Source of the DNA: Fasciola hepatica
Taxonomy: Eukaryota; Platyhelminthes; Trematoda; Plagiorchiida; Fasciolidae
Reading direction: 5' to 3'
NCBI GenBank assembly: GCA_948099385.1
Contig: CANUEZ040000199.1
Coordinates: 3,730,001-3,794,000 of the forward strand
DNA: 64,000 nucleotides
This document shows, in pieces, positions 3,100 through 62,600 of this stretch. The notes beneath the pieces were generated by a model, which saw only the letters and a program-made list of their open reading frames with translations, had not been told where the DNA came from and made no database searches. Positions within the stretch are counted from its first letter, which is position 1, and every line of letters begins with the position of its first letter. A program made the position numbers and the translations under genes.

Positions 3100-4900
3100 T
3101 CACCCGTTTTGCTTCAGCCAGTTATTTTATATTGCAATAATTTACGGAGTTCCCTTTAAAATCGAATCAAGTTGAGGGAAGGGAAATGGGTATTTTTCAA
3201 ATTCATTTCGGTGACGGCAAATTCTAGGTATGGTTATGAAAACGAACCTCTTCGGTATCAAAAAATGCTCTTCCATCTGAAGTTTTCGAAATGTGGCTGG
3301 GGAACCATCTGTCCTCAAAGTCCGGTAAATTTATCCGGATGTAATTTATATCACTCGCCCTTCCTAGTAGTATGGTAAGGTGTCGTCGATAGAAAGGCGA
3401 TTTACTGGTATGCGTGGTTCCGGTTGTCGTCAGGGACACAGCTTCTGTTGTTTGATATGCGGATGTTCATGTTTGGACTTGGCAATCCGCAGTTTAACTC
3501 GGAGTGTGGTCGATCAGTTGTTTGAATTGGTCTAGTTTTAAATACGAAAGAAAATCCAAAGCCCATTCAGTAATGTGAACACAAGCTTGGTATTCTGAAA
3601 GGTGTGTGATAAACAATCATGAGACTCTCGAAAAATCATAGAAGGACATTGTTTTCTCTTACATGAATGGAAGAGGTTTATTCGAAATAATGAGCCTATG
3701 CACTGATTAGTTCGATATTATTCGATACTAGCTTTTATAATCTAATTTTCTTTTGAGTTACAAGTTGTAACCCATCCACCAGAAATGAACACAGCACAGT
3801 TTGATAAATAGATAAATTGGGAGTTCAATTCATTTGGTTGTGGATTCTCATCGAACAATGCACGAATGATGACCTCATAATTGCTTCGTCCATTTCACTT
3901 GAGTAAATGAGGGTATGGGTGTCACCAAAAGACAGTTCCAGGAAAATCATGGTAAGTAATATTTGGGGTGGACCAAAACTTTTTCTACTCAAGTTATTTC
4001 CTTTATGCCCCTCCTCTGCGATTCCAATCAACGTTTGGAAATTGAATTAACAATCAAAAAGTGTTCTATTGAATATGATGGATCATAGCTGAACGAAGAA
4101 AAGTCAGTTGAACATCAACCACCGAACACTTTTGTTCATAAATGTAAGCGCCTGTTCAATTAAATCCCATAAAATTCATCCCACAACTGCCAACATGATT
4201 CACAATGTAAATGACCACGTAAAAATTGTAGGAAAAATCAAACAGGATTATCTTTGGGAAAAATGAATAACTTTTTATTCCGGAGAATTATTGAACATTT
4301 GAAAAAAACTGTCGTATTTAGAACAGCTTTGGATGTCTTTTGGCTCGCTACCGTCAAAGATCAACCACATGATGTTATTTACTGCAGAAAATAAATATAT
4401 ACATGCATGGTTAACTACTATAAATAGTTAAAGTAGTTAAAGTGAGGAAATCTCCAACCGACCTACTGAATTCCGTTTCACTTATTTGACAAGTAGTCTG
4501 TGAAAATCTCTGAGCTAAAAATGCATCCATGGGAACGGTCATGCCAGCTTGTTTTCAGTCACACTTCTTGACAGTTGTTGAAGAACATTTACCGTGTTTT
4601 ACATTATGCTGCGCAAAATTAACCATTTTATCTAGTTAAATTGGACTAAGTTTCTTTCATCAATTCACTCTTTACTTCCTAGCAAAATTTCATTTTTAAA
4701 CTTGATTACTAAACTCATCAGATTATTCACCATTTCAGGAATCAAACGCACTTATCCAAACAGATTCGGAAACTGAAACGAGCCTTCATTTTGAATAAAC
4801 TAACTAAGTGTTTTGTCATTGATTTGACTACTTTCAACAGTAGGATAGGATTTAGGTGTGCAATGAAGCAAGCGCACGCGACATTGATTGTGAAACACGT
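3100..4900. other. Mostly non-coding; one open segment on the minus strand
   Basis: The stretch is AT-rich. The minus frame at 3224-3439 (containing INLPDFEDRWFPSH and SKTSDGRAFFDTEE) reads like protein and could be another exon of the minus-strand gene, but I find no convincing pair of splice sites. Nothing else is seen. Confidence 0.25.
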
Positions 4901-4915
4901 GATCAACTAACTCAC

Positions 4916-5289
4916 ACTTTTCAGATTGAGTAAATTGAAATTTGTCGATTTCCGGATTGCATCCCATGCATGTGAGCCAACGAAACAGACCACGTGTACG
5001 CGAACCACCGTTTCGGCCTCAAAGTGATTTGATCTATCCCCTAAGCTAGCTTTGACAGTCAAAGCCATTGACATTGTGGGCAGCATGGAGAACAATTCCA
5101 ATGTTCCGGTATTGGAATCAATCCTGAATGCGTTCTGCTCAACCCCATGATTCACAAGTAGGTACTGGATTCTACTTGAAGATTTCATCTCGTCAACTTG
5201 TAGACGGATAACAGGGATCAGACTGGGTATTTCATCTTCACAAATCGTCATATGGTATACGGGTTTTGTGAACAAAAGCGTCTCAACGA
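4916..5289 (-). CDS. Cadherin-repeat exon
   Basis: This minus-strand exon is bounded by a pyrimidine-rich acceptor (AAATCTTTAG at 5290-5299) and a donor GTGAGT at about 4915. It enters in phase 1. The product is a cadherin-type beta sandwich: an opening YHMTICEDE like the strand A Y-x-v-x-E, a middle QYLLVNHG followed by AFRIDSNTGTLEL (the F-x-I-D-x-x-T-G-x-L signature), then LTVKASLGD and ETVVRVHVV for the last strands. The calcium motifs (DRE, DxD, DxNDN) are largely missing, so calcium binding at this repeat is doubtful. Role by family: cell-surface adhesion or signalling. Upstream exons must lie at higher coordinates. A CELSR/protocadherin-type parent is possible but cannot be chosen from one repeat. 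Confidence 0.7.
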
Positions 5290-5549
5290 CTAAAGATTTA
5301 AAATAGAACAAAGCAAAAGATTTTGGAAACGGAACATGACTCAGTTTAACATCAGCAAAGGACGACTTTTCGTAATGAGGAAAGTGAAATTAGTCAGAAT
5401 TGCATGTAGTCTAAATATCATTCATCATTTGTAGTTTGGGTTACAGAATTGCTCAAGAGAGTCAAATAGCTGCTCGAAAATAATGAAATGTGGTGTGCAA
5501 ATGGATTCATTATTGATAATTAGCAAAATGATTAAAATAATTTCGATTG

Positions 5550-5806: not shown

Positions 5807-6097
5807 CTACAAACAATGAAAGATAAATCGTAAGATGTGATACTAATGCTGATCAGTTTAGCTTGGCCGTTACACACTGATTTCTATCTAGCTGCCAAAT
5901 GACGATAACAAGTAGGTACTGAAGGAACCTTCCAAATAGATGCGAATTGAGTAAGAAAACTCTTTTTCACATGGAGGTTAGTTCTAGCCTAAAGCTATTG
6001 ATAATTTACAGCAATGAATGAAAAATGAATGGAATGGATAAATTTCAATAAATTTTTCACCATGGATGTTTCAATTGAGATAAATTCTGATTACTAA

Positions 6098-6263
6098 ATG
6101 AGATCCACCGTAAAATTGTCACAAATCTCCCAGCTATATTTCATACGGGTGTTCAAATTTGTGTCACTGTTACAGCTGACTGTAATCGGCATTCTCATGG
6201 GACAGGTCCAGCAACCTTTTCAAGTCGAATCAAGTCATATCTCTGCAGTCCGCACCCCATGCG
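6098..6263 (+). CDS. MEG-like exon 1: leader exon
   Basis: ATG at 6098 is directly preceded in frame by TAA, which sets the start. The exon encodes 55 codons plus one base and stops at a consensus donor GTGAGTA (phase 1). The hydrophobic run FVSLLQLTVIGILMG follows a basic N-terminus (MRSTVKLSQ ... IRVFK), consistent with a signal peptide or signal anchor. The remainder, QVQQPFQVESSHISAVRTPC, would be the start of the mature part. Confidence 0.5.
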
Positions 6264-9200
6264 GTGAGTATTCATTTGTCATATGAACAACCCATTTATT
6301 GAGTGAATGAAAAATCAAGGAGGCATGGCAATCAGCTTAGTTATAGCTTGATCAGGCTTGCTGGGAAGTCTGACGAGACAAGTAATAACAACATTTGTAT
6401 GATTTTAACGAGAAAGTGATTGCAACTAAGTGGTTTGGAATGATTCGGAACACGTTTGACAGGATCTTGGTAGAATACGTATCAGGCGTCTGCTAATGTT
6501 TTTCGGACAGACTCGGCAATACTGTGTTTCTGATTAGTGGGAGGAGGATATACGATGGGTATACCGCTGCACCAAGAAATAGTCGTCAGCAGTCTGAAGT
6601 TAAAGTAGAAGCATATTTGAAAGACAGTAAAATGCCAGATGCTTGCATGATAATTAGATACGTAGAGAATAAATGGAACCTCGTAGAACACTCAGTTTCA
6701 AAGTTGAGTCGGAATAAGTCCTGCCACGATAGCAAGTGAATTAGTGGCGTTTACCGAAGCAATAATATAATCAAGCTTTGGAAGAAGACAAAATTCCGCC
6801 TGCAGAAAGAACGCGGAGTAAATTTCCTCTTTCAGTATAGCTGAACGTGTCGTTGTAGTCTAAAAGAGCACCATGCAAACCTTACTTTACTTATCTAAGG
6901 ATGTCAGAATGTGATGGCATAAATAGCCATGGGCATCCACATCAAAGTTTGAAGAAAGTGGTAATCCAGCCTGTTTGATCATTCCACTTTTGTATGTAGC
7001 ATTGGTTATCATTTGCATTTGGGGCTGAAACAGAAAAATGGTCGTTTCCACAAGACGGATTACACCTTTGGTTCCAATAAGAGTCAAGTATACTTTCAGA
7101 TTACGGTAGACATAGGTCAGGGATAAAATTTATATTCTCTTTTTCGTCTAAGAAATGTGAGCAGGACATTTCCGGAAACCGCGATATGATAGGGTGCAAA
7201 ATAGGCTACACTTTATTCGCTCATGTAATGAACATATTGTGTTAGCTCTGGCTCAGATTAGTTTCAATCACTCCTAAACAATATTTCAAACTTAAAAATC
7301 TGTAGGGGAATTGAGTCGATCAATATAAATCTTATATGAAATTATTAGAAATTCAAATTTCAAGAAAACTTTCAAAAATCCTCAGTCTGCTTTAAACACC
7401 TAAAGAGCTGAAATGAGAAGTGGACATGACACAAACGAATATACAAAATTCTCTACTTTAATCAGCCTCAGAAAAGTCAATTCACTAAACGGTATATATG
7501 AAATTAGCCGCACGGGAGAATATATGGAATTGTTTGTCTGTGGCTGGAATTTACCGGAAGCTCTGATTTAGCACAACTACGAATGGTTGGCGGTTTAATT
7601 CCGCATCTCGGTGTTGTGTATTAGCCATACTGCTTAGGACATTAATAAATTTGATATAGGTATTACATAGTCTATTCCATCGTATTCAGTTGTGTGATGT
7701 TTGTCCGACTGGGAAGTGACTAATGAGGATAGTCCAGTTATTAAAACAAAAATATGTAATGCATATCCTTGGAAGAGTGCTTTTTGCTCCATCGGATATT
7801 CGCTTATTATTCACATTCGACTGGCCGTAGTACCGTAGCTCAAACAGTGGCGCATCTTCTCGGTAGGCAGAAGGTTGTCGTTTCAGTCCTGGCTGATGGC
7901 GCGGCACTTTCGGAGGCGAGGTAAACAATTTTAATTAGCTGCGGTCCGTGCTTCCATTGTAAAATATATCAATAGGGAGTAGATAGAATGACTGCACGTC
8001 ATTGTTATAAAAAGATCACATACTTTTCACGTAGCGCCTCTTATACATTGAATTACAGTATGTACAGCTGGGATTCATTCTTCTCCCAGAAACCTGGCCA
8101 TTCAAATAAACTTGGAAGTAGAACTGTTCAGCCTGAAAGATTCATTTTTGGTCAAAAAATATAATCCTAATGTTATACCAGGGATTACCAATTGATATTC
8201 AAGTTAGTGAAAACCTTGTTCGTAATATACGTAGAAAACACGGATAGAGAACAAGCTTGTTTTCGGTAACATCATCCTCGTGGCTAATATAGTTACATTT
8301 ATAGGTTAGAAATGCATAAGTTATGAACTATGTCTGTGTGCTAAAGTGTGATTGGACGGTCATCAAAATTTGTGTTTCGTAGTTAGGAAAGATATGAGTG
8401 GAATGTTGTTATTCCGTGGTTGGTAAAAAGACCAGTGAAAGAATGAACGTGGGTTTCGGCGATTATACATTTCCGGTTTAAACCAAAGGGTAAACGTTTG
8501 GGTCACACCGAATTCCAGGGTCTGTCTTGGATAGCGGCAAGGGCAGTTCGAATGTCTTAAGAAAAGGTTACTTAAAAAAACTACTGGAATAAATAATTTG
8601 ATCGCTATAGACGTTGCCGTTGCTATTTTGAACGCGTCGTCGTTTATGTTATGTTCAATGTTTTCAAGATGCGCCAGAATTGCACTGGCGATGAATTTCC
8701 TATTTCCCGTAGTAAGTCAAGTTGGTTTGTGCCCTTTGATCCCTTGTAATAGCTGCCGTGTCCTTCTACCCATATAGCTTGCCAAACATTGCCAAATAAA
8801 CGAGAAGGTTATCATGGATGAGATGAGGACAGGTAACGTGTCCTCCAGATTCGTTGAGATCACTGGTCGACCGGTGAAGTGGGCACGCAGTGTAAGAGCG
8901 GGAAAGGTGCAAGCGATTGCCTTTTCCAAGCGTCTTATTAGTAACTCCTTTGAGAGGGAGTTGAATTCGTAACTCTTTCTTCTTGACGGTCACTCAAGCT
9001 CGTCCCGTTGCTCTTTCTGCCATGTTCTTCTGAATGAAGCGCTCGGGGTATCCGAAACCCAGAAGCGCTTGCCGTACCATGACTACTTGTCCACGCACCG
9101 CCTCATCCGCGGAAATTATTAGCACACGGGCTGTAAGGGTGTGAATAACATTACGTTTATGCCCAATATATACAAAACTGGCGACATACTCGCACGAAAT

Positions 9201-12200
9201 CCCATAAGTATGATCTTGAACTCAGTCTTGTGAGATATCTTGAACAAAGTGAGTAAAGTACAGATGAGCTTGAAGTGATGCTTTGCAGTATTAACGTTGA
9301 ATTTAGGCTTGTTAAAGCCGAAATAATCTGCATGCTTATAGTTGTTAATCTACGCAAGGACACTCAAAATTGCTTAGTTGTTCGAAATCATTAAATTTAA
9401 ACGAAACCAGTGATTGCATTCAGATAATTCACGAAGCAAGTGATAAGGTCTAAGCTTCGTGATTTTCCACCCCTCCCCCCATTGTGCTCGGTTTACCCAC
9501 TAGTTGAAAAATTTGTTGTAAATTACCCGTCAACAACGAACGATGTTTCATTGATTTGGTACGATTGATCAAGGCAGCTTGCTAGTAAATCGATTGTGTT
9601 TAGCATGGGTTCTGCCTGAGCAATGTAATTGATCGCATAAGACCGTTTTGCATTTCGTACTATACATACTTGGCTGTGTGTCAACGTGCTCAACTTTTGA
9701 TAGATCGTGCATAAAGCAATAACCGCACACGTTCGTATAATCACATCTCAGTGTTATTTGCTCATTTACAGTACTTCGTGAGTCACGAATTTTGTTCTAC
9801 TATGAAACCTGTGGTTATTTTATGGGGTACTGTTTGCTTAATCAGTTTTAGTGGAACGGAAAATGCAAGTGATGTAGTTAAGTTCAGTTTCTTGTATCAA
9901 AACACAACTTTATTCCAAACTACATCCGACAAAAATTATGATATTTTCGTGTAAATACAGAGGTTTTTCCTGGGCAATGTACTTGGTGAGTTGGCCAACA
10001 CGAAATTTTATGTTGCTTGAATGCGTCTATCGCATTCTGCCATCTCCTTCTTGGTTTCCAATTTTGTATCCGTGGTGATAAGGAAATCTCTGAATTTGTT
10101 GTTATTTTACGACATGGTGTATAAAATAAAATTCTCCATACCGAAATGCGGAACCGTCAGTGAAGCACGATACAATTCATCCAGCTCCTAAATAGTGTAT
10201 CCATTTGCGAAGTGGTAGGAGACAACGACCTGAATGTATGAGTTATATCTATCAGACTGATCAGACGGTTTCGTATATGGGTTGGAAAAGGAGCTACACT
10301 TACATTGGATGTTCTGAACAATTGCAGTTTGCTCAGCGTGGATTATTCTACATTCATTTCTTCGTAGAGCGCATAGATACAAATGCTGATGTCAGCTGTC
10401 TGAATTATTCTGCAGAAATGCTCAACCATATGGTTAAAAAATGAAAAAACCTGGAATGATGGAAACGAAAGACTTCGAAATAAAAAGTAATGAAGCTTAG
10501 TTTACTTCTCAAGGATTTATTACTATTGGTTTCAGAAAGTCTCGAACAAACCAATAATCTAGATAATAAGATTATTTTTTCTTTACATGACTCACATATT
10601 GTGGCAGATTATATTTGATATTATGATACTGAAGAGTAAGAACTGGTTTGCACCGACTGACAGTGTTGGAGTGAATTTTCATAATAAATACAGCGATGTC
10701 CTTGAACAAGTTAATGGAATTGAAAATAACTTTGGATTCGCATATAAGCACTTCAATTGTTAATAAACTGCTGCAGAATTTTTCTATCCCCAGGAGCTGT
10801 AATACAACGTGAAGCAATCAGTAAGTATAGCACTTCACGTCACCCACAGGAAGGTGACGCGAAAAACGTTATTGTGTATGCATGTTTTCAAGGTGACAGT
10901 TCCCCTACTTGCACCCTACTTCATCAAATACTTTCTTGAATAATGAATATTTTTCGAACACATTATTTACGAACATTTCGATCCATTTTACTTTGCTCGA
11001 TTTTTATTCAAATATGATAACAACTACTTGTAATATGCATGGTTATGTTCGATTCTGATGAACAGTTTTCAGGTAAGCTTTTAGGTATTCCAAATCGGAA
11101 TAGGTGGAAATCAAGCGCCTCTCAGCGGAAAGCCGTATTTCACCAAAACACCAAACACGATTAGGAGTAAGTGGTGGAGATGTTGCCCTCGGTTACATGT
11201 TGATTAAAGGTGAAAAGAAATCAGTTTTCAGAGAGAAGAATCTAGTGCGCTTCAAATTAGGTAAACTTGACGAGTCAGTACTGAAATCGGTTCGGAATGT
11301 ATCAAAAAATCGATGCGCCACGAGAAATGCTGTGCTAGAATTTTATTGTTTAATAACACAGTGTAATCGAAATCGTTTGGAAGTCATCGACATTTCGGTC
11401 ACCACGGGTAATATTTTACAAGACTGTTATTAAACAATAACATTTTACCTTAAGTGAGCTTGCTTTGAAACAACACTAACACAGTCGTTGACAATTCCAT
11501 TCTGGCGAAAATGTCTGCTTTCTGGGAGTTGAACGTTTAGAAATAAATCAAAATTCGGGTTGTCATTCCGACAGTGTTCTGCAAATACTATCTGAATAAT
11601 TTTAGATCAGATATTCAATAAACTGTTTTCCATATTCGGTTTTATATTTGCACTGAAGTAGACTACTTTTCTTCAGCTAAAGAAAAATATTGTTTGGTAG
11701 TGGTGGTTATGTGCGAGTGGATTCACTGATAATAACAGGCATTCGCTTGATCAGTGATCAGTGATATTGAACTAAAGGCAAAGTAAAATTACGGGGAATA
11801 AGTAGAAAAACAACCAGTTTATTGGCCACTGAATTGCAGTTTTTTATTGTAATCTATCTTTATAGCTGGAGCGTTGCTTGAAGAGGAACCAGCGTGAACT
11901 GATGAACGACAGTCGTGTGTACACATAATGGAGGGGGGAGAGATTTACTGGGATTATTATTTACGTACACCTGTGGACACATGGACCTGCGCACCAAACG
12001 AGCACGTAACAAATGAGAAGCTTTTTTGTGAGCTGTATCAACACCACAGATTTGACCACTGTTCAAGGTAAGTTGAAACACTTTAGTGCTCATACGAATA
12101 CATCTTGAACTTTTACACACTAATTGATTGACTCCGATATTAATAACGAATGATGCTACCGTCTTATTGGTCAGTCACAATAAAGAATTCACAACAACAT

Positions 12201-13640
12201 TCAGAAATTTGTTCCTTGTTAAGCAAATATAGCAAGCAACAATTTGATTTAAGGACGCATGATATCCATCGCTGAACAATGACAATCACAAATGACCTTG
12301 CACGCATAAATCCTCATACTAGCGTAACAGCTAGTGAAAGGTAATCGGAAAATTTAAGCCGGCAAATAGTTTTGACCGGTAGTAGTAGAGTGGACTACCG
12401 AACTTCCTTACCGTCTCGAAGGTCAGAAGTCCAAGTTCCAACAGGAAGTCAACTTGGTTGTAGGGGGTAATGCACCCTCATTGAGCTCGTTACTACACAT
12501 AACATTTCGGCACCTTACGTCATCCTCTAATTCAAATTTCGGGGTCGCGTTGCCGGCTATCGCTGACAGTAGTGGGCCTTCGCGGCAATGACGTACGCCC
12601 CTTCTACTGCACTAACACCAACATTACGCATTACATCATTGATTTCCATTGAGGCTGGTCATTTCAAATTTGGAATCAGAGTTTATTTAGAGACAAAGCT
12701 GCCATCTTTGAACCACACAGTATTCAAACCTGTTTTAAAATAATTGACTGAGGACATCTTTTCGATATATATCATTGAGTACGAACGGAATTTAGTAATG
12801 AGCAAAATATCTTATGCGATTCCTTTTATAACCTAGACATCCGAGATTTAGGAAAGAGAGAGAAACCAGAAGAAAAATCCTGACTGTGTTTCACTCTGAA
12901 ATTCGATTTTACATGCTGAGCTTTTGTTTTGGTACTTGGTTTGTTTTCACAGGTGACAACGAAGTGCAAAGCACGAATAAAACTCTAACAAATACCTGTT
13001 TGTCCTCACGGCTTGCAGATTACTTTGCTTGTAAGTACACCCAAAATTCCCTTATTGAAGCATCTTATTCTGTTTCATCTCGAAGTTAATGCAATACAAC
13101 ATACATTGTGTTCACAACCATGGATCAGTTCCATCTACATACAATGGATCTCTTGATAATTTTAGGTCAGGCGGTCACGATTCCATGTAAGTGCGAGTAC
13201 AAAAATACTACCACAATTCCCATCCATTCCACAGAGGTTATGCTAGATTTTTGAGGAAAATTGCTTCAACAAATCAAACCGATGCTTGATCTCAGTCGAT
13301 AGTTTATTCACCAGTCACAAACAGAATATGAAACCGTCTTTCTTCTGCTATTGACAGCATTATTGGTTCACTGGATGACATTCTTATTTTTTTCTCTTGT
13401 GTAGTTACGCAACCTATTTTGAATATTACGGCAATGGTTTCCTGTGGTACAATTTGGAGTAGAACTTTTGGCATTATCGTGATCCTCCGATCTTTTTCTC
13501 AATTATTCATGTTTTTTTCTTGTGATTATCCAACACCGGATCCCTTGCTTCTGCCTGTATCCATCAGTTCAAAGATTGGGAGAGTAAATGGCTTCCAGTT
13601 GTTCAAGTTTAGGAATCTCATCGGCAACACGGCAAAATGA
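6098..13640 (+). CDS. Candidate micro-exon gene (MEG-like secreted or membrane protein)
   Basis: A spliced plus-strand gene is inferred from exon to exon. A leader exon (6098-6263) ends in phase 1. Tiny exons follow at 10794-10820 (27 nt), 12050-12067 (18 nt), 12953-13030 (78 nt) and 13166-13186 (21 nt), then a terminal exon at 13405-13640. Each internal exon has AG before and GT after, is a multiple of three, starts with two bases of a split codon and ends with one. The joined frame has no stop until TGA at 13638-13640. Optional exons at 6538, 9772 and 11073 also keep phase. This is the hallmark layout of fluke micro-exon genes: a signal-peptide exon, then symmetric 6-81 nt exons, which permits exon skipping without frame loss. 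Estimated product is about 185 residues. Unusual for MEGs is the membrane-spanning stretch near the C-terminus. Known family function: secreted, variable parasite proteins of unclear role. Individual microexon calls could be chance; the shared phase is the main support. Confidence 0.5.
6538..6558 (+). CDS. Possible 21-nt microexon
   Basis: The acceptor ACTGTGTTTCTGATTAG precedes 21 nt, followed by GTATAC, a weak donor. In phase 1 it reads GGGYTM with split codons at both ends and no stop. Included because it keeps phase; the donor makes it doubtful. Confidence 0.15.
7820..7895 (+). repeat. Possible tRNA-derived SINE-like segment
   Basis: TAGCTCAAACAGTGG (7835-7849) resembles a pol III A box. 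GTTTCAGTCC (about 7879-7888) resembles a B box at roughly tRNA-like distance. It may be the head of a SINE lying in an intron of the MEG-like gene. No tRNA fold is claimed, and no second copy was found in the window. Confidence 0.22.
8480..9130 (-). mobile_element. Penelope-like element fragment (linker and GIY-YIG endonuclease), decayed
   Basis: Two minus frames together give a Penelope-type C-terminal half. The linker motif GYPERFIQKN lies near 9040. Then come KKKELRIQLPLKGVTNK, LEKAIACTFPAL and LRAHFTGRPVIST. The nuclease start is altered (ITFSFIWQCLASYMGRRTRQL, compare F-x-C-x-C-x-x-x-Y-I-G-R-T-x-R-x-L), followed by IKGHKPT and the downstream HLENIEHNINDDAF near 8650. Frame changes and lost cysteines show it is dead. 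It lies antisense in a putative intron of the MEG-like gene. Confidence 0.7.
9772..9777 (+). CDS. Possible 6-nt microexon
   Basis: The acceptor TTATTTGCTCATTTACAG is followed by six bases (TACTTC) and then the consensus donor GTGAGTC. Six nucleotides is the smallest size known in fluke MEGs, and the phase fits (split codon, Leu, split codon). A chance AG/GT pairing is a real alternative. Confidence 0.25.
9802..9868 (+). CDS. Possible alternative signal-peptide first exon
   Basis: An ATG opens MKPVVILWGTVCLISFSG, a typical signal peptide with a basic n-region, a 13-residue hydrophobic core and a polar c-region ending TENA. A possible donor (CAA followed by GTGATG) at 9868/9869 would leave phase 1, which fits the downstream microexons. 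It could be a second start for the MEG-like gene. The donor is weak, and the frame also runs on to a stop at 9954. Confidence 0.25.
10205..10444 (+). CDS. Unassigned open frame, uncertain
   Basis: An open frame of about 79 codons contains SYIYQTDQTVSYMGWK and LFYIHFFVERIDTN. No family is recognised. The opposite strand (10188-10382) is also open and has a donor GTAAGT near 10307, so the coding strand cannot be chosen. It lies within an intron of the MEG-like gene. Confidence 0.12.
   Translation: MRSGRRQRPECMSYIYQTDQTVSYMGWKRSYTYIGCSEQLQFAQRGLFYIHFFVERIDTNADVSCLNYSAEMLNHMVKK
10794..10820 (+). CDS. MEG-like microexon, 27 nt
   Basis: One of the best-defined tiny exons. The acceptor AATTTTTCTATCCCCAG is pyrimidine rich and the donor GTAAGTATAG is consensus. 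Phase 1 in and out, reading AVIQREAI between split codons. Confidence 0.6.
11073..11084 (+). CDS. Possible 12-nt microexon or alternative last exon
   Basis: The acceptor GAACAGTTTTCAG is followed by 12 nt and a GTATTC donor, reading KLL between split codons in phase 1. If the donor is not used, the same phase stays open to a TAG at about 11160. That gives an alternative basic C-terminus (LGIPNRNRWKSS ... FHQNTKHD). Both readings are tentative. Confidence 0.25.
   Translation, partial: VSF
11104..11433 (+). CDS. Open frame of about 109 codons, unassigned
   Basis: This plus-strand frame (EIKRLSAESRISPKHQTR, LGVSGGDVALGYMLIKG, KSVRNVSKNRCATRN) is open across the region between MEG-like exons. 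A possible donor GTAATA follows ISVTTG near 11407. It has no match I recognise and is not in the phase used by the MEG-like gene. It may be a separate exon, a pseudogene piece or chance. Confidence 0.2.
   Translation: MEIKRLSAESRISPKHQTRLGVSGGDVALGYMLIKGEKKSVFREKNLVRFKLGKLDESVLKSVRNVSKNRCATRNAVLEFYCLITQCNRNRLEVIDISVTTGNILQDCY
12050..12067 (+). CDS. MEG-like microexon, 18 nt
   Basis: CTTTTTTGTGAGCTG...CACCACAG forms the acceptor and GTAAGTTG a consensus donor. The 18 nt read LTTVQ between split codons in phase 1. Confidence 0.5.
12360..12620. repeat. GC-richer insertion-like segment
   Basis: Base composition is visibly richer in G and C than the flanks, with phrases such as GAAGGTCAGAAGTCC and GGGGTCGCGTTGCCGGC. 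It looks like a fragment of a dispersed repeat inside an intron of the MEG-like gene. No coding motif and no second copy in the window were found. Confidence 0.25.
12953..13030 (+). CDS. MEG-like exon, 78 nt
   Basis: A strong acceptor (TTGGTTTGTTTTCACAG) and consensus donor (GTAAGTACA) bound 78 nt, phase 1 in and out. It reads DNEVQSTNKTLTNTC then LSSRLADYFA. There is one N-glycosylation sequon (NKT) and a cysteine, plus a second cysteine formed at the downstream junction, as expected of a secreted protein. Confidence 0.6.
13166..13186 (+). CDS. MEG-like microexon, 21 nt
   Basis: The acceptor TCTTGATAATTTTAG and donor GTAAGTGCGAG bound 21 nt in phase 1, reading QAVTIP between split codons. 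If left unspliced, the frame continues to a TGA near 13253 (KCEYKNTTTIPIHSTEV), which could be an alternative C-terminus. Confidence 0.55.
13405..13640 (+). CDS. MEG-like terminal exon with membrane-spanning stretch
   Basis: A very strong acceptor (TTATTTTTTTCTCTTGTGTAG) starts the exon, which enters in phase 1 and stays open for 78 codons to TGA. It encodes TQPILNITAM with an N-glycosylation sequon, then TFGIIVILRSFSQLFMFFSC, a likely membrane helix with one arginine. After it come a proline-rich part (DYPTPDPLLLPV) and a basic tail. This would make the protein membrane anchored unless the exon is skipped. No clear AATAAA follows within 150 bases. Confidence 0.5.
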
Positions 13641-13796
13641 TCCCTGAAAATGGGAGATTTAGTTAGATTTCATTAGTTGAAAGTGGATGCTAGTGTTCGA
13701 CCACAGAGCATTTGAATAATGATAAGTACAATCATTTTTACCGTTTGCGTGACTCAAATGTCAGTTGAAAAATTACATGAAACTTGTTAGACGTCT

Positions 13797-30317: not shown

Positions 30318-33300
30318 TCTCAAGGCGGGAAATTCTCCTTCTCGGGTGTCACAATCTCGTTATTGCTATCCGTTCTTCGACCAGTGATTTAGATGAGGAT
30401 CGGTTGTGTGAAAGCGGTAAATCGCTCGTGTGTGATAAACGGTTATTTCCCAATACAGCAAGAAGAGTAATGCGATCAGCAATGAAATTGGTCACATTCG
30501 TTACGTGCACTCATCCGCACATCGTAGACGATTACACATATTTCATACTGTTGAGGGGAGTTATTGTCCGAATGAATCAAACATCAGGATAAGGTCGGAA
30601 TCGGAGAGGATTGAACCAGGGTGATCACATATATTTTGTCTGGATAGAGTTCATAGCAAAGTCTTTTGTTGAGTCGCGAATTATGAGGGTGTCGTTTATG
30701 CATCAGGTGTACATATATATACTGTCAATGGTGCTGCATAGTGGTCCAGTTTCGAGTTTTGCTAAGAATATATCCGCCGGAAGGGGCCCAAGTGATGCTT
30801 TCTCTGGATGTGGAATCCCCATTCACAAACGTTCCGTTGCTCGAGACGGCAGAATTCATCTTTCAATACTTGACCGATAATGATATCAAACTCGACATTC
30901 CTGTGGCCAAGCTGAAAGAACTCATTCTTAGATGTACATGAAATATGCAATTTCTGTACAGTGGAAAATCCTACAGGCAGAAGGACGGGGTAGCAATGGG
31001 ATCACCACTTGGACCCCTTCTGGCGGATATATTCTTAGCAAAACTCGAAACTGTACCACTAAGCAGCACCATCGACAGTTTGTTTATGTACACCAGATAC
31101 ATGGACGACACTTTCATAATTTGCGACTCAAAAAATGACATTACCGAAATACTGCGGACACTCCACAACGCCCGCTCAATGACCACATTTACAGTGGAAA
31201 TAGAGACGGACAATTTCCTCGTTTTTCTTGAGGTGGGATTGCGTAGAATGGAGGACGGACATATAGAAAGGAGGGTGTATCGTAAATGTACATGGTTGGG
31301 GCAACACACATATTTTCGAAGTTTTGTCCCCCTCTGATACAAAAGAAACCTAGTGAGCTGTCTTACCTACAAAGCAAGAAACATCTGTAGTCAGGACACG
31401 ATTGCCAAAGACCTCGAACACATAGGTGACACATTACTAAAAAACGGATATCCAGAACCGTTTATTCGTTACCCTATGGGAGAGAGGAGACACAAAATGA
31501 AAGTGCAGATGGCCAAGAAAAAGGGATATTTTTCTAACTGGCCCGTTCAAGGGTGACAAAAACCTAAGAAATAGTAGAACTACGCATATCTAAGAGCCTC
31601 GGGAAGTCCTTCACCACTGTGCATGTCTGAATCTTAACAAATACGAAGCCTTTCGTTGTTCAACATTCCAAGGACAGGTTGCCTCGTCAGTCTCAATCTT
31701 TTGTTCTATATCAGTTTACGTGTTCTTGTAGTGCACAGTATATTGAAAATACGAAGAGACGCCTGTCGGAGAGGATATCAGAACACGTCCCGGCTTCTTT
31801 ACTCAAAGGAACTATTCGTACTATCAATAGTGCAATCCTACAACATCTGGTGGATAGCGCACATCAAATCGACACAGTGACATTTTTCAGACCAGTCTTG
31901 ACAATTCCCACAGTTTACGCGAAAGGATTACGCAGGCGGTTGCTGATGCCATCAGAAGCCATAGCAATTCGACTATTGACACCTAAATTGTGTAAGCAAC
32001 GTAACCTGGTGCAACAGTTGTTGTTGCCGTGGCCGTAACGAGTGATTTTCTTATGGTTCCTATATGCAAATTCTCCCCAGCCTCACACCTCTTTTTTTAT
32101 ACCCTTGTTCTTCACACCTGTCCTTTCACGCCATTTGGTTACACAGTTCACACTTATTGTCGTTCACACAACAAACAAGATTCATCAAGTTGAAGAATGT
32201 TGTCGAGGCAGCGGATATGTTGCACATTTACTTACTCTCTGCTATATTTAGCTGAACATATATTCTCTTTTACCCAGTACTATATATGTCAATGCCTGAA
32301 GTGATATATCGAGAAGACATTTTTTCGTGTTACAAGTGTAATTCCATGTAATGTGGTCGTTGGAGATGGATAAACTAACAGCAAGATCTGCTCATTCCGT
32401 GGACATATAAATCAATGCAGACCAATTTAGTTAGGCAAAAAGGAGTTGGTAATAATAGAATGAGATGAGGTCAAGACTCAGTACAAGGTAAACAACAATT
32501 ATATAACAGTTATTGCTCAAATGCTTCATTCACGATTTGTAGAAATGATGATCACCACCCTCCGTAACTCTTCACCTAAATGACACTCGTTTTATTGACA
32601 TGTTATGGTCGTAACGCGCACTCCACCCTTGATTGTTAAATTGGGGATGAGAGTGATTAGTTTTTGTGTACCAAAGAAACTTGCTGTATACTGAACGACA
32701 CCTCTTGCGATGTTGAACCGTCACGTAGTTTTCTTTAATAAATGCAATAAAAAATGTTTCACTTCAGATAACACTTTACATGCTGGATAAACCGATCAGG
32801 AATCAGAAGTCCATTCAGCAGTGCAAGTTCAATAGCAAGGTCTTGTACAGCATCTCAAAATAGGGTTTGCGCATGGTTTGATGTAACAGTCTATTAATTT
32901 GTAATTTTGATGTGGATGGTACGAATCATACCCACCTAAAACGCGTTTTGAAGTTGAACCCAATATATGCCATGACTGTATTATTTTCCATAGTATTGAG
33001 AACCATAGTCTTTCGATCAACTCATAACGAAAAATATATCAACTAGTAGTCACCTAGATTCGTCGTCACAAAACGACTGGGTCTAGGGCGAGATACTGGG
33101 ACTGCCGTGGGTGAGTAAAATTTGGAGCTAGATCACCCATTAGCCTCAGTGAGACCACACCTGATAACTGCAGTTCAAGGAGGATTATACTCGGCTGAGG
33201 AATGAAATATTTCAGGACGGAGCAGGGATACTGTGGATATGAAGGTGTAGTCAAAAAATTGATCAGTGGAGACAAGGGAAGAGTATGTTTCCGATGTACA

Positions 33301-40365: not shown

Positions 40366-40542
40366 TTATTTCACCCATCGGTCTATTTTCTTGCTCTGTT
40401 CGGGAATTAAGTTCCCTGCCGTGTCACGAAGAAGGGAATTTTGCTTACAAAACCTATCAGAGGCGTTCCTAATAAGGCGGAACAGTTTACCGAAGTCATC
40501 AATTCCGGACGCAGTCTCCATTTTTTCAGCTATTTCTATTCA

Positions 40543-41800
40543 GTATCTTTTGCGATCAGCCTTGGCGGAGCGTGTCGCCTCTCGTTGCAGTCTGCGGCGT
40601 TCGGTACTACCTGCCAGTCGCGTTTCGTGCGCTCTGGTTGACAGCTGGAGTGTGCTCTCCGAGATCCAATCTTTTGTCCGCCTTTTTGTTCTCCCGAGTA
40701 CTGTCCAGGAAGCTTCCTCGATTGTCACCTTCATTCGAGTCCACTGCCCTTCCATGGAAACTTCATCTGCTTGTGCATTGGTTGCATTGGTTAGTCGGGT
40801 TGTGATTGCTCGTGACAACGCTTTTCGCTTCTCTGGATTTCCTAGGGCAGCAACGTTTATCCGAGAGGGTGCAGACACTTTAGCACGTGTGGATAGATGA
40901 ACTTTGAAACACGCGCGTAGGAGGACATGGTCAGTGCCTTTTCTGTTGCCCGTTATTGCACCTCGGTACTCTCGGAAATCCTCCACGGAAGAGGCCCAAT
41001 GGGCTTTTACCAGGATGTGGTCGAGTTGGTGTGTAGTGCGACCGTCATTGGAGTACCATGGGAGTAGGTGCTTTTTGGGGTGTTGAAATCGAGTGCTGCA
41101 GACAACCATTGTGTTGATGTCGGCTAAAACAGTCAGTCGGCCATCGTTCTCGCAGTGTTGACCAAGGCCGAATCTCCCGAGAATATGGCGAGTAGATTCA
41201 TTGGCCGTACATGTGCGAGCGTTCCAATCTCCTGCGATGAAAAGTACATCGTGCCTCGAAACCCGGTTGATTACCTCCTGCAAGTAAGTGTAGAATTCGT
41301 CTTTGGTTTCGTCATCAGCTGAATTGGTTGTAACATAGATCGCGATCACCGTCAAGTCGTGCGGGGAGCCTTTAAAACTTGCCAAGGCAAGTCTGGATGA
41401 GACTGGTTCCCAAGAGATCATTGCATCATTAGCTGCTTTGTTCAGAACAAACGCGACACCGTAGAGACCGGAGTTGTCTTTCGGGCTACTGTGATAAAGC
41501 CAATAGGATGTATCCACACCCGGGACCTTTATTGTCGGCTACCTGAGTTGGGCGGGCGGACTTCCGAGAGGCAAGCAATATCTACGTCATATTTATGTAG
41601 AGTTGGCATTAGAATGCACTGACTGCCGACGACTAGATACGTCCAGACGTTCCAACAAGCTATGTGTGTTCTTTTCCTGCAGTGAAGAATCCTAGCTTGT
41701 TGTCTTATCACCTTGACCGCCGGGACACGAGACGCGTCGCTTACTGGGGAGGCCGTGGCTTGATGAGCGCTTGAGTTTCCGTGAACAATCATAGAGAGTC
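40543..41800 (-). pseudogene. RTE-like AP endonuclease domain
   Basis: Starts in one frame near 41690 (HIACWNVWTYLVVG, YDVDIACLSEVRPPN) and shifts frame near 41525 into a 325-codon stretch. Catalytic landmarks in order: N and E of the first motifs, SGLYGVAFVLN, FIAGDWNAR, THQLDHILVKA and GTDHVLLRA. These are the D-x-N and DH pairs of the exonuclease-endonuclease-phosphatase fold. It nicks the target DNA to prime reverse transcription. It continues into a linker (WISESTLQLSTRA) and is stopped by TGA at 40540-40542, where the frame otherwise runs on (IEIAEKMETASG). A second stop, TAA, is at 40366-40368. Confidence 0.85.
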
Positions 41801-45653: not shown

Positions 45654-47430
45654 TCACCACAGCGCAGTGATGTTGACTCGTGCATGCGTCTGCCACAACC
45701 ATTTCTCAAGAAATACATCCACATGTCGACTGAACAACGTGTCGTTAGGCTCTTCCACCAATTCGGCTGGCAGCGAGTTCCATAGATTGGTCACCCTCCG
45801 AGATAGACGGTACACCAATGGGAGGCCCACCGACTGCAGTTTCCTTAGAGTTAGTGGGTGCCCCCTCGTACAGACATGTCCTCGAAAAGGGAGCTCTGCA
45901 CGTAGTTCTGGGCCGAAGTCGCCTCTGATGGTACGCCTGGTGAAGATCAGGTCTCCCCGGACTCTCCGATAGAACACTGGAAACAGCCCCTTGATCTTCA
46001 GCCGCTCTTCGTAGCTGACCCCAAGTAGCCCTCCAATAAGGCGGATTGCACCTCTCTGTACTCTTTTCAACTTTGCCATCTCTGCCAACGTACAAGGGTA
46101 AACCGCTGGCCCCCCGTATTCGATCCGGGGACGCATATGGGTAGCCTATAGTACCTTGAAGGCGTTGAGTGAGAGATGGCCGAATGAACGAGTAATCGGC
46201 CCGAGGAAACTCTACGCTGACGAACAAACTCTATCAGTGTTGTGCTTCGTTTTTAGTGACGAGACCACCATCACTCCAAGATCTTTTTCGCGGACGGAAA
46301 GCCGAATGGGTGCCCCGTGTATATTGTACATCCCATTGTTGGATGGAGCTCCTACTCGGATATGCGCACACTTGTCGGTGTTGACTGGCAGTGGCCACAG
46401 ATCTGACCATCTCTCAAGGGCTTTGATATCCTCCTGAAGAACGAGCTCGTCTGCATTTGATGTATTCGTGCTCTAGGTCTTAAGTTCGTCTGCGTAGATG
46501 AGACACGGTGATTGAAAAACTGGTGGTTGATCATTGATATAGACCAGGAAGAAGAGCGGACCCAGAACCGATCCTTGTGTAACACCACCAGTTGCCACTT
46601 GCCAAGTTGACAGTGATTGTGCTACTCGTACTGTAAAGGTTCTCCCTTTTAAAAAGTCCTCTATCCACAGAATCAAGGGATCTACAACACCAAGAGCCTT
46701 AAGCATACCTAAAAGACGGTCATGCGGGACTTTGTCAAAAGCTTTGGTGAAATCCACGAGGATTATGTCCGTAGGGTGTCCTTTAGCCTTGGCCATCGTC
46801 CAGCTTTCTTGCGCGATTACTAAGTTTGTCAGGCACGACTACTTTTCCAAACCCCATGTGGTTGTCGGCATATTATGTTCCCGGATTCGCGTTGCCAGCA
46901 GGCGCTCTATAACCTTTCCTACCACCGGCGTTAGACCGACTAGAGACGTGTTGAACAGTCGTGTGACCGGTTGAGTTAACACATCGGCCAGCTCCTTTAC
47001 CACTAAAGGATGAACACCATCAGGTCCCGGAGATTGGTCGACTTTGATGATGCGCATGGTTGCCGCCACTTCTTCCGCAGTGAGATCTTGGCACGACATT
47101 TGAGAGACACCAACTGCAATGTGTGAGGGACGGTTGTGCTTCTGTTCAGGAGCATAGACTGACAAGTAGTATCTCTGCTTTGTGTTCATCTGTAACTCTC
47201 AGAGAGTGTCCGTCCTGTAGGGCTGGGATTGCAGTTGTGATTTGCGTTTTCTGTCGCAGATATGCGAACAGGCGTTTGGGTGCTCGAACCGAGTCCACTG
47301 CTAACGTCTCTTCAAAGAGACGTCGCTTTTTCGGCTTCATTTGGGTATACTGATTCCGAATGGTGTGGTATCGGTCATATCCCTCTCCAGTTGCGTCACA
47401 TTGTTTCCATGCTCGGTTCCGACCCTTCAA
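45654..47430 (-). pseudogene. CR1-like reverse transcriptase and C-terminus
   Basis: SPGPDGVHPLVVKEL opens the RT. Then RLFNTSL joins directly to VGLTPVVGKVIERLL, so the segment that normally holds the W-x-x-A-x-V-x-P-I-x-K-x-G and YRPIS motifs (about 30 residues) is missing. A TAG follows WGLEK. The palm DIILVDFTKAFDKVPHDRLL and GVTQGSVLGPLFFLVYIND are intact. The catalytic box reads YADELKT instead of YADDLKT, followed by TAG. Thumb and tail (RIEYGGPAVYP, FYRRVRGDLIFTRR, VTNLWNSLPAELVEEPN) run to the stop at 45654. Confidence 0.85.
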
Positions 47431-52967: not shown

Positions 52968-53111
52968 TTCTTTTTGGATGTGTATAACTCAACTTTGGAA
53001 CTGTAGCCGTTACTGGGTAGCAGTGAAATATTACTGAAAGGGCCCAGGGTTCTGACTACTGATAACTTCAAGCGCCACGGAATTTGAAGATTATTGGATG
53101 GATGGACAATC

Positions 53112-53116
<5 letters not shown>

Positions 53117-53189
<73 letters not shown>
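53117..53189. repeat. (TA)n microsatellite
   Basis: About 70 bases of pure alternating T and A. Open frames of isoleucine-tyrosine repeats across it are artefacts. Confidence 0.98.
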
Positions 53190-53192
<3 letters not shown>

Positions 53193-53409
53193 ACACCGGC
53201 TTGAAAACAAGCATAGTGCCAACGCATCAACAACAGAGAATAAGTGCGAAGTCGATTGGTGGAGGATGAATAGTCAGTATAAAGATTACGTGTTAAAGCA
53301 AAATTCTAAGCTTTGTAAATTTTTGTCCGCTTTTTTCAGTTGTTTAGGAAGAAATGAGAAGTCAATACACAGTCCATACAGCATTCGCTCCTCTGAATTC
53401 GGTTCTTAG

Positions 53410-61089: not shown

Positions 61090-62600
61090 TAGTCTATGGT
61101 TTGTTGTAGGAGGAGGAGGGGCCAGGGCAGCTTAAGGGCACATACAAATTGTTTTTGAGCACAAAAAGAGGGGTTGTGGCGGCGGATGCCGACGGCCTCA
61201 GCTGTGGCTAGTATGCGACACTTTGCCGGTCTTGACTGTCGACCGCGAACCGCATACAGCGCACGGAAGGCTTCAGCCACGCATACTGCGTGATTAGTCT
61301 AGGCAAGGGGTGAAACGACAGCTCTAGTGAGTGACCTAACTACTCCAGTGATTAACCATGCAGGGTGGTGTTCGCGGATGCGTTCAGACAAAGGCCTGGT
61401 CTTGCGTCCGATGTACGTTGTTTCATAGTATCAAGTGAGCAAATCAACACAAAATGAGGCTGCAGAAGCAGGCACTTTGTATTTCAACCGCAAAGGCACT
61501 AACGGCTGGGATTCGAACAAAACCCGGAACTTAGCTGCGTAGGACGTTTTGCTGATTACCCCTGACAATCTTCTCTACACAATCTCTGCCAACGTATCAC
61601 CCTTGAATGACAAAGAAATATATATCGGCTTTCTTTCCAACCCAACCTTCTTTGGGGTTTCCACTTCAGCAAGCATTATCTTCTCAACTAGCCAGTTCGG
61701 GCAGCCGTTTTGGATGAAAGTTGTTCGCACCGTTTGCATTTCTTCTGCAATGATGTCCTTCGAACATATTATTCTTGCCCTGTTTATGAAGCATCGAATT
61801 AGGTTCTTTATATTCTTTGGAGGCACAAAGATGTAGAAGTGAATGTGTTATCCTTTCCAAGTTGCTTTTCTATATACCGACCGGCTCTTCGCGGCGACTC
61901 ATCCGAACGACAAGGAAGGCGATTGGATTGTCTGACTCTGCTCCTATTGCGCAATGTAAGTTTATGTGAGCTGAGTTCAAGCTGTCCAACAGTTGGCTTA
62001 TGTGGTCTGATGAATTGACAATATAGAAAATGTCATCTACGTAGCGTCTGTATACAACACAGTTTCGGATTGAAGATTCAAGTGGACCATTTTCTAACTT
62101 TACCATCACGATATCGGCAAGTATTGGTCCGAGTGGGGAGCGCATTGCTACCCCATCCGTTTTGCGATAGATCTGATTGTTAAATTTGGACTGAATGTTA
62201 TACGTGCACAAAAACGGTAGCCGTTTCAGATTTTCAAGAGGTATGCTTATACCAATTGTGTTCCTTTCAATATAGTGACATAGGTAGTCGACGGCCTCAC
62301 CTAACGGGACGCTGGTAAAAAGTGAGCTGACGTCAAATGAAAGCATCCGACATTTTTTCACGTTTAGATCTTAACAGCAGTTTACGAATTAAAATGAGTC
62401 TTTGAGGCAGTACTTTAGCATTGCCTGTCTTACTGGTACCACCAACCTTGCAACCATTTAGTCACCTCATGGTATGGTGAATTACACATGTCGAGGTAGG
62501 GTCTTAAGTGTACACCATTTTTATGTTTTCGGTAACCCGTACAATCTGGTAATGGTTGTTCCCGTAGGGCGTATCCGATCAAATGTGGCTGACTCTATCA
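61090..62600 (-). mobile_element. Second Penelope-like family, RT and endonuclease remnants
   Basis: Minus-strand order: RPTGTTITRLYGLPK (62.59 kb), then in the next frame NGVHLRPYLDMCNSPYHEV, then LSFDVSSLFTSVPL (62.33), DGVAMRSPLGPILADIVMV, the catalytic YRRYVDDIFYIVN (62.05) and IAFLVVRMSRRE. The first stop of this frame is at 61870. The linker can be followed to 61575 (CFINRARIICSKD, NGCPNWLVEKIM). The nuclease is mostly unreadable, but the C-terminus AEAVGIRRHNPSFCAQK ... LKLPWP at about 61.2-61.1 kb aligns with EAIAIRLLTPKLCKQR ... LLLPWP of the 30-32 kb element. RT residues YVDD are intact; frameshifts and stops disable it. It is a distinct lineage from the 30-32 kb element. Confidence 0.85.

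Follow-up and report, generated by a model that had tools for sequence, protein, structure and literature searches.

A probable degenerate copy of a clustered nine-exon gene with a four-cysteine domain in Fasciola hepatica

Micro-exon genes (MEGs) have been delimited in two ways. A strict rule counts exons that are shorter than 70 nucleotides (nt) and divisible by three, and calls for at least seven exons, at least half of them micro-exons, with a run of four (PMC7653826, in the passages available to us). A looser description, in the available parts of PMC10526429, speaks of exons of 6-81 bp that are mostly multiples of three. Here we compare such genes with a locus of the fluke Fasciola hepatica, contained in a window of 64,000 nt (C199:3730001-3794000, forward strand of contig CANUEZ040000199.1), which is the whole stretch of DNA that was analysed; the genome searched comprises 1.5 Gb. 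An earlier note on this DNA had proposed a MEG-like gene at positions 6098-13640. With a probability of about 0.85, the window instead carries a degenerate copy, one of many clustered copies, of a nine-exon F. hepatica gene, whose intact relatives would encode a protein of 252 amino acids (aa) with a leader, a four-cysteine domain, a stalk and a tail. Exon lengths, splice sites, reading frames, copy number and the ratios of nonsynonymous to synonymous substitution (dN/dS) were computed, and we infer export, anchoring, alternative splicing and exposure to the host.

Compared by plan and not by homology, the family resembles the MEGs of Schistosoma mansoni, as these are described in the accessible portions of PMC10526429 and PMC4350168, in its leader exon, its short multiple-of-three exons, some long introns, its clustered copies and the weak constraint on its small-exon part. 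Unlike them, it has a constrained four-cysteine domain from conventional exons of 98 and 235 nt, a hydrophobic C-terminal tail, and a count of four exons in nine below 70 nt. The tandem MEG cluster on chromosome 6 of Hymenolepis microstoma is also an amplified cluster with a common conserved leader, so far as the passages of PMC7653826 describe it, but the exons of the family fail the counting rule of that paper. The nearest precedent in plan is schistosome VAL-6, a venom-allergen-like gene with a MEG-like part, presented in the same portions of PMC4350168, where a conserved domain is likewise combined with small symmetrical exons; unlike in VAL-6, the family's domain has no Pfam match above cut-off. 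Among the papers listed on micro-exons in flukes and flatworms, on Fasciola genomes and on Fasciola multigene families, with subscription papers largely outside their range, no title or opening of an abstract told of such a Fasciola family, and the word 'micro-exon' is absent from the searched passages of PMC4404566 and PMC8519440, on the genomes of F. hepatica and F. gigantica. The family is almost undescribed, with the reservation that silence in the literature is no proof.

The nine-exon gene and its predicted protein

We aligned the window with 20 fetched copies and then with three more, which gave 24 rows. The gene model is intact in L037 (C199:3554500-3564490), L035 (C98:4939000-4948990) and the distant relative L044 (C116:13210100-13214400), with nine computed exons of 76, 24, 98, 235, 27, 51, 45, 72 and 131 nt that would be translated into 252 aa. 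Its plan is a leader, a four-cysteine domain made by two exons, a stalk of symmetric phase-1 exons and a hydrophobic C-terminus. The exons have the following counterparts in the window; P0001, P0002 and P0003 are annotated F. hepatica proteins that are discussed below.

9802-9877, + strand: exon 1, leader (MKPVVILWGTVCLISFSGTENASDV); 76 nt with exit phase 1 in the relatives, without a donor GT in the window; also the start of P0001.
9961-9985, + strand: exon 2; 24 nt and phase 1-1 in the relatives, 25 nt with the frame lost in the window.
10118-10214, + strand: exon 3, first half of the four-cysteine domain (YEMKFSIPECGTVSEALYKIIQLL.. in L037); 98 nt in the relatives, 97 nt without an acceptor AG in the window; in P0002.
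10256-10486, + strand: exon 4, second half of the four-cysteine domain; the intact relatives have 235 nt, the window has 231 nt interrupted by in-frame stops.
10794-10820, + strand: exon 5; 27 nt, phase 1-1; in P0001; 27 nt in the distant L044 too.
12062-12067, + strand: candidate 6-nt micro-exon, implied by P0002 in the L037 copy; without an acceptor AG in the window.
12846-12869, + strand: what remains of exon 6, which has 51 or 60 nt in the relatives and lacks its 3' part and donor in the window; in P0001, P0002 and P0003.
12953-12997, + strand: exon 7; 45 nt, phase 1-1; kept in 21 of 24 rows, the window included; in P0003 only.
13166-13237, + strand: exon 8; 72 nt and phase 1-1 in the relatives, donor at 13237 lost in the window; in P0001, P0002 and P0003.
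13405-13525, + strand: exon 9, the terminal exon, with the hydrophobic C-terminus; in L037 it reaches its stop after 131 nt; in P0002.

In the window, indels alter exon 9 and its frame runs on to 13640. Exon 6 begins nine bases upstream in L038 and L041 and retains the frame (60 nt); L038 deviates from the model at one donor, and L041 has all splice sites present with a stop that closes the frame at residue 55. The 6-nt exon, which P0002 implies, is unproven: within the part of L037 that was searched only one site fits it, it is kept in 14 of the 24 rows, and it was not found when looked for in L044.

The comparison of L044 with L037 supports the model and is a cleaner test than scans on hand-picked paralogues. 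In a global alignment, the introns of the two copies show 40% mismatches and 1.52 gap openings per 100 bp, whereas the exons have identical lengths and every splice site, and contain no gap in 759 nt against 11.5 expected (P about 1e-5). L044 had been chosen among protein-level matches, and patterns designed around the L037 model served to locate its exon borders.

The same comparison separates the parts of the predicted protein. With respect to L044, the domain is constrained (dN/dS 0.25 for L037, 0.23 for L035), the small-exon stalk is unconstrained (0.95 and 1.09) and the C-terminal tail is intermediate (0.66 and 0.47); among closer copies, where the domain ranges from 0.62 to 0.99 and the stalk from 0.62 to 1.23, the contrast is weaker or absent. 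The domain spans about 110 aa, and its cysteines at residues 44, 64, 85 and 114 are common to L035, L037 and L044. Sequence searches of Pfam, NCBIfam and PDB returned sub-threshold matches or none, with no entry above cut-off for the domain. The best 19-residue hydropathy means are 2.04-2.47 for the C-terminus, 0.91-1.36 for the leader and 1.32-1.73 for the interior; the hydrophobic tail is therefore clear, and the leader does not stand out by the same measure. The proteins of the family are probably secreted or surface proteins. Such a protein would be exported and then held at the surface by its C-terminal tail, either membrane-spanning or lipid-anchored, and the domain would be kept while frame-neutral small exons, which could be omitted singly, vary the stalk.

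The family works partly like a micro-exon gene without qualifying as one under the strict rule. The computed model has nine exons in L035, L037 and L044, beyond the seven required, but its micro-exons number four (24, 27, 51 and 45 nt), less than half, and their longest run is three (27, 51 and 45 nt) instead of four. The run would reach four if the 6-nt exon of P0002 were real, or if exons 3 and 4 were skipped as in P0001. Five of the nine exons fit the looser range of 6-81 bp; they account for 219 of 759 coding nt and so do not make up most of the coding region. Several introns of the family measure only about 60-210 nt.

Annotated proteins and conservation scans

Three annotated F. hepatica proteins belong to the family by their shared exons, each with a partial exon set and no function assigned. 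P0001 ('unnamed protein product') joins exons 1, 2 and 5 as predicted and later contains exons 6 and 8, all closely matching copy L043. P0002 (also 'unnamed protein product') contains exon 3, the first 18 residues of exon 4, then exons 6, 8 and 9, with exon 8 at 72 nt and not 21. P0003 (hypothetical protein D915_010854) joins exons 6, 7 and 8, with exon 7 at 45 nt and not 78; exon 7 is skipped in the other two. The three proteins vary in exon content, but they derive from different copies.

Conservation among paralogues was scanned in several ways. A strong-site scan over both strands and all phases, which kept symmetric exons found in at least seven of nine copies, returned exons on the + strand only (9961-9985, 10794-10820 and 13166-13186), all open in phase 1 and two of them in other phases too. 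In a shuffled-position test, the chain of exons 1, 2 and 5 with an exon later dropped was intact in 8 of 8 copies against a null mean of 3.1. Exons 2, 5 and 8 were kept in all six copies of a picked set and exon 6 in four, a degree of retention (6/6) reached by 1 of 151 phase-1 pseudo-exons; over 23 rows, exons 2, 5, 8 and 6 were kept in 13, 20, 17 and 12, while pseudo-exons averaged about 6 rows and reached 21 at most. The strong-site scan, the 8-copy null test and the 6-copy test all used paralogues picked for an intact leader donor and lean towards conservation. Because its nine copies were chosen in this way, and because a scan for bare AG and GT gave no excess, the strong-site scan is supportive only, and the three annotated proteins are the stronger evidence. 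In a six-frame scan of the ratio of nonsynonymous to synonymous differences (pN/pS) across 4.7-14.5 kb, one of the low stretches, at 9787-9876, lay on exon 1 and led to the discovery of that exon.

Several results weigh against the nine-exon reading. Under the model, two of the 24 aligned rows are intact and 22, including the window, are not. All nine exons occur together in none of the annotated proteins, and each of these includes sequence that the model leaves unexplained: P0001 has additional sequence between exons 5 and 6 and ends in a foreign C-terminus, P0002 reads exon 1 in a different frame and cuts exon 4 short, and P0003 has a foreign start and an altered end. The bare AG/GT scan found no excess on the + strand over the - strand, and the six-frame pN/pS scan was noisy over its 9.8 kb. 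For exons 1, 2 and 5 with the dropped exon, pN/pS was 0.60, and 17% of the shuffled-position controls were as low. The dN/dS ratio between close copies was 0.44-1.05, and the hydrophobicity of the leader does not exceed that of the best interior stretch.

Two candidates were rejected. An early model, which kept the 78-nt exon of the earlier note and lacked exons 3, 4 and 6, had a frame of 118 aa; used as a query it brought up P0001 and P0002, after which it was replaced. The other was a terminal exon at 11866 (..GALLEEGTT*), which is absent from all three annotated proteins and was discarded for that reason. Separately, positions 11962-12081 on the + strand hold a conserved frame (..YWEHYLRTPVDTWTCAPNKHATNEKLFRELYQHH..) of low pN/pS (0.24-0.31), which is unused by the three annotated proteins and shifts relative to its neighbours between copies.

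The window copy and the earlier exon chain

The window is homologous to the family over the unit, and its nine exons do not all keep their sites and frame. Six of them (1, 2, 3, 4, 6 and 8) carry seven splice or frame defects: exon 1 has no donor, exon 2 has 25 nt, exon 3 lacks its acceptor and also has 97 nt, exon 4 has 231 nt with stops, exon 6 is truncated without a donor, and exon 8 has no donor. The near-identical copies L021 and L022 show the same defects. Given these seven defects, the window copy is most likely a pseudogene, and in its present state it would be unable to make the 252-aa protein. Exons 5 and 7 are still sound, which is what the earlier note had partly seen. Its chain, all on the + strand, was as follows.

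6098-6263, + strand: leader of 166 nt that leaves in phase 1; its frame is open in the window's clade only, and it is not part of the family gene.
10794-10820 (27 nt), 12050-12067 (18 nt), 12953-13030 (78 nt) and 13166-13186 (21 nt), + strand: internal exons.
13405-13640, + strand: terminal exon, ending in TGA.

Every string of this chain is located where it was placed, and the joined frame is open for 181 aa. Micro-exon-like motifs of this kind are at chance level across the whole window: with thresholds set at the weakest of the four internal exons, the + strand has 27 phase-1 exons of 15-81 nt and the - strand has 24, while 20 first-order Markov controls average 25.6 (18-32). A modest local excess favours the earlier note, since the + strand from 6.2 to 13.7 kb holds 10 overlapping exon pairs, which fall at 7 distinct places, against an expectation of about 3 pairs. 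The 181-aa product has no relative among 44 candidate proteins at an expectation value (E) up to 1. The window has no Rfam match at gathering thresholds, and a typed 20-mer searched against the genome gave zero matches.

We then required each border in the paralogues to retain AG, GT, length and an open frame, using 20 copies, or 21 rows with the window for the leader. The exon at 10794-10820 is kept in 17 of 20 copies and is exon 5 of the family, correct at both ends. The leader is kept in 6 of 21 rows, which are the window and its five closest relatives, and the 18-nt exon at 12050-12067 in 5 of 20 copies; both are confined to the window's clade, and neither the leader nor the acceptor at 12050 belongs to the family gene. 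The acceptors at 12953, 13166 and 13405 do belong to it. The exon 12953-13030 is kept in 4 of 20 copies, and its donor at 13031 is foreign to the family: GTAAGT is confined there to the window, L021 and L022, the remaining rows carry GTAGGT, GTTGAT or other forms, a stop lies upstream of the site in most rows other than these three, and the donor of exon 7 lies 33 nt upstream. The exon 13166-13186 is kept in 17 of 20 copies, with a sound acceptor and a doubtful end, exon 8 being 72 nt in the relatives. The GT at 13187 persists in 17 of 20 copies, and 13 of 14 copy groups score it as a donor; it lies inside coding sequence in all three annotated proteins and is missing from L044, so that it is at best an alternative donor.

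Measured against the final model, one internal exon was thus right at both ends, two had the right acceptor only, 12050-12067 had the donor at most, and five exons of the family gene were missed. The earlier chain strings together splice-like motifs that are either leftovers or accidents, and it cautions that a broken copy of a small-exon gene, read alone, can give a plausible and largely wrong exon chain. Its general ideas survive better for the family than for the window. Junctions in phase 1 are found at the leader exit, the five small internal exons and the terminal exon of the family, but the seven defects speak against a working gene in the window. The label MEG-like suits the family in part, which has a conventional domain of 98 and 235 nt and falls short of the strict published rule. 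Skipping any one small exon, or exons 3 and 4 as a pair (333 nt), would preserve the frame.

Three other explanations have to be set beside a degenerate copy of the nine-exon gene. The window might hold a working micro-exon gene after all, with the leader 6098-6263 and the listed exons, in which new exons have replaced old ones. The open 181-aa frame, several strong sites, the modest local excess of exons and the GT at 13187, kept in 17 of 20 copies, are in its favour. We nevertheless consider it very improbable: such exons occur at chance frequency over the window, the leader and the exon at 12050 are limited to the window's clade, inherited exons nearby are broken, and the 181-aa product resembles none of the 44 candidate proteins at E up to 1.

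The whole family could also be non-coding, a segmentally amplified repeat with accidental open frames and mispredicted annotated proteins. While the 22 rows that are not intact, the transposon pieces in the window and the lack of strand bias in bare AG/GT conservation would suit a repeat, one would hardly expect L037 and L044 to share nine exon lengths and their splice sites, free of exon gaps (P about 1e-5), when 40% of their intron positions mismatch, a domain dN/dS of 0.23-0.25, or mostly open distant domain exons on C95, C97, C116 and C117, and we give this explanation very little credence. Finally, the window pseudogene may still yield short or non-coding spliced RNA, or may donate sequence to intact copies by exchange. 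Its exons 5 and 7 keep their sites and many similar copies lie on the same contigs, which points in this direction; on the sequence at hand we regard it as unlikely.

Family size, genomic arrangement and neighbouring sequence

The degenerate copy in the window has many relatives. A leader-region probe (window 5950-6400) gave 40 scored genome places among 56 candidates at 83-100% identity, and a 3'-region probe (window 12900-13700) gave 40 scored places among 76 candidates at 78-100%; where leader and 3' matches could be paired by coordinates, they stand in the same order about 3 to 9 kb apart. Similarity among the copies spans most of about 10 kb, introns included, with gaps in some copies. 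For exon 4, which carries part of the domain, 254 candidates yielded 150 scored matches (E up to 0.01), haplotype duplicates included, and 102 of the 150 contain no stop. These matches cluster on C98, C224, C199/C231, C95, C97, C116, C117, C220, C242 and other contigs, and the distant ones on C95, C97, C116 and C117 are mostly open. A 22-mer of exon 8, with up to three mismatches, occurs 69 times, 57 times on the nine contigs of the subfamily and 12 times elsewhere, against 8 for a backward control. Several contigs look like alternative haplotypes of each other, as we infer from matching spacings, and the copy numbers are therefore inflated.

Tentatively, and at slightly less than an even chance, these copies are part of a very large and essentially uncharacterised superfamily in F. 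hepatica, leader-bearing and C-terminally anchored, with a constrained four-cysteine domain and a stalk whose frame-neutral small exons are under weak constraint. Its copies, some intact and some broken, would lie in megabase clusters, and as a domain family combined with a micro-exon system it could vary surface proteins by choice of copy and by splicing. If expressed, it would provide a large set of candidate surface or secreted proteins in an important fluke of livestock and humans, and it would bear on the question whether a non-schistosome fluke has micro-exon systems, as add-ons to an ordinary domain. Small exons and similar copies are perhaps why the family was overlooked.

The spacing of copies suggests that C98 and C224, and likewise C199 and C231, are alternative haplotypes, and match coordinates hint at an internal duplication of about 1.36 Mb in C98. 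L045 (C95:2270300-2274300) and the region 1.6-3.4 Mb of C95 form a separate cluster whose introns hardly align; exon 3 is retained there at 64% and exon 4 at about 39% aa identity, and the leader and tail exons seem related, weakly.

Other parts of the window hold further features. An open frame at 4907-5389 on the - strand contains a Cadherin-like domain, which falls below the curated cut-off (Pfam PF00028, E 2.6e-5). The frame was amplified together with the gene; the bins at 4900-5300 have identities of 0.89-0.93, among the best conserved of the unit, and the part 4940-5284 is almost stop-free in the copies. Reverse transcriptase fragments (RVT_1) and a sub-threshold endonuclease match lie at 30942-31334 (+), 46473-46835 (-), 61873-62370 (-) and 40540-41535 (-); these stretches are retrotransposon remains, and a similar stretch, recognised by eye, begins at about 14200. 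At about 53100 there is a long TA-type simple repeat, read as YIYIYI.. in the open reading frame 53056-53409 (+).

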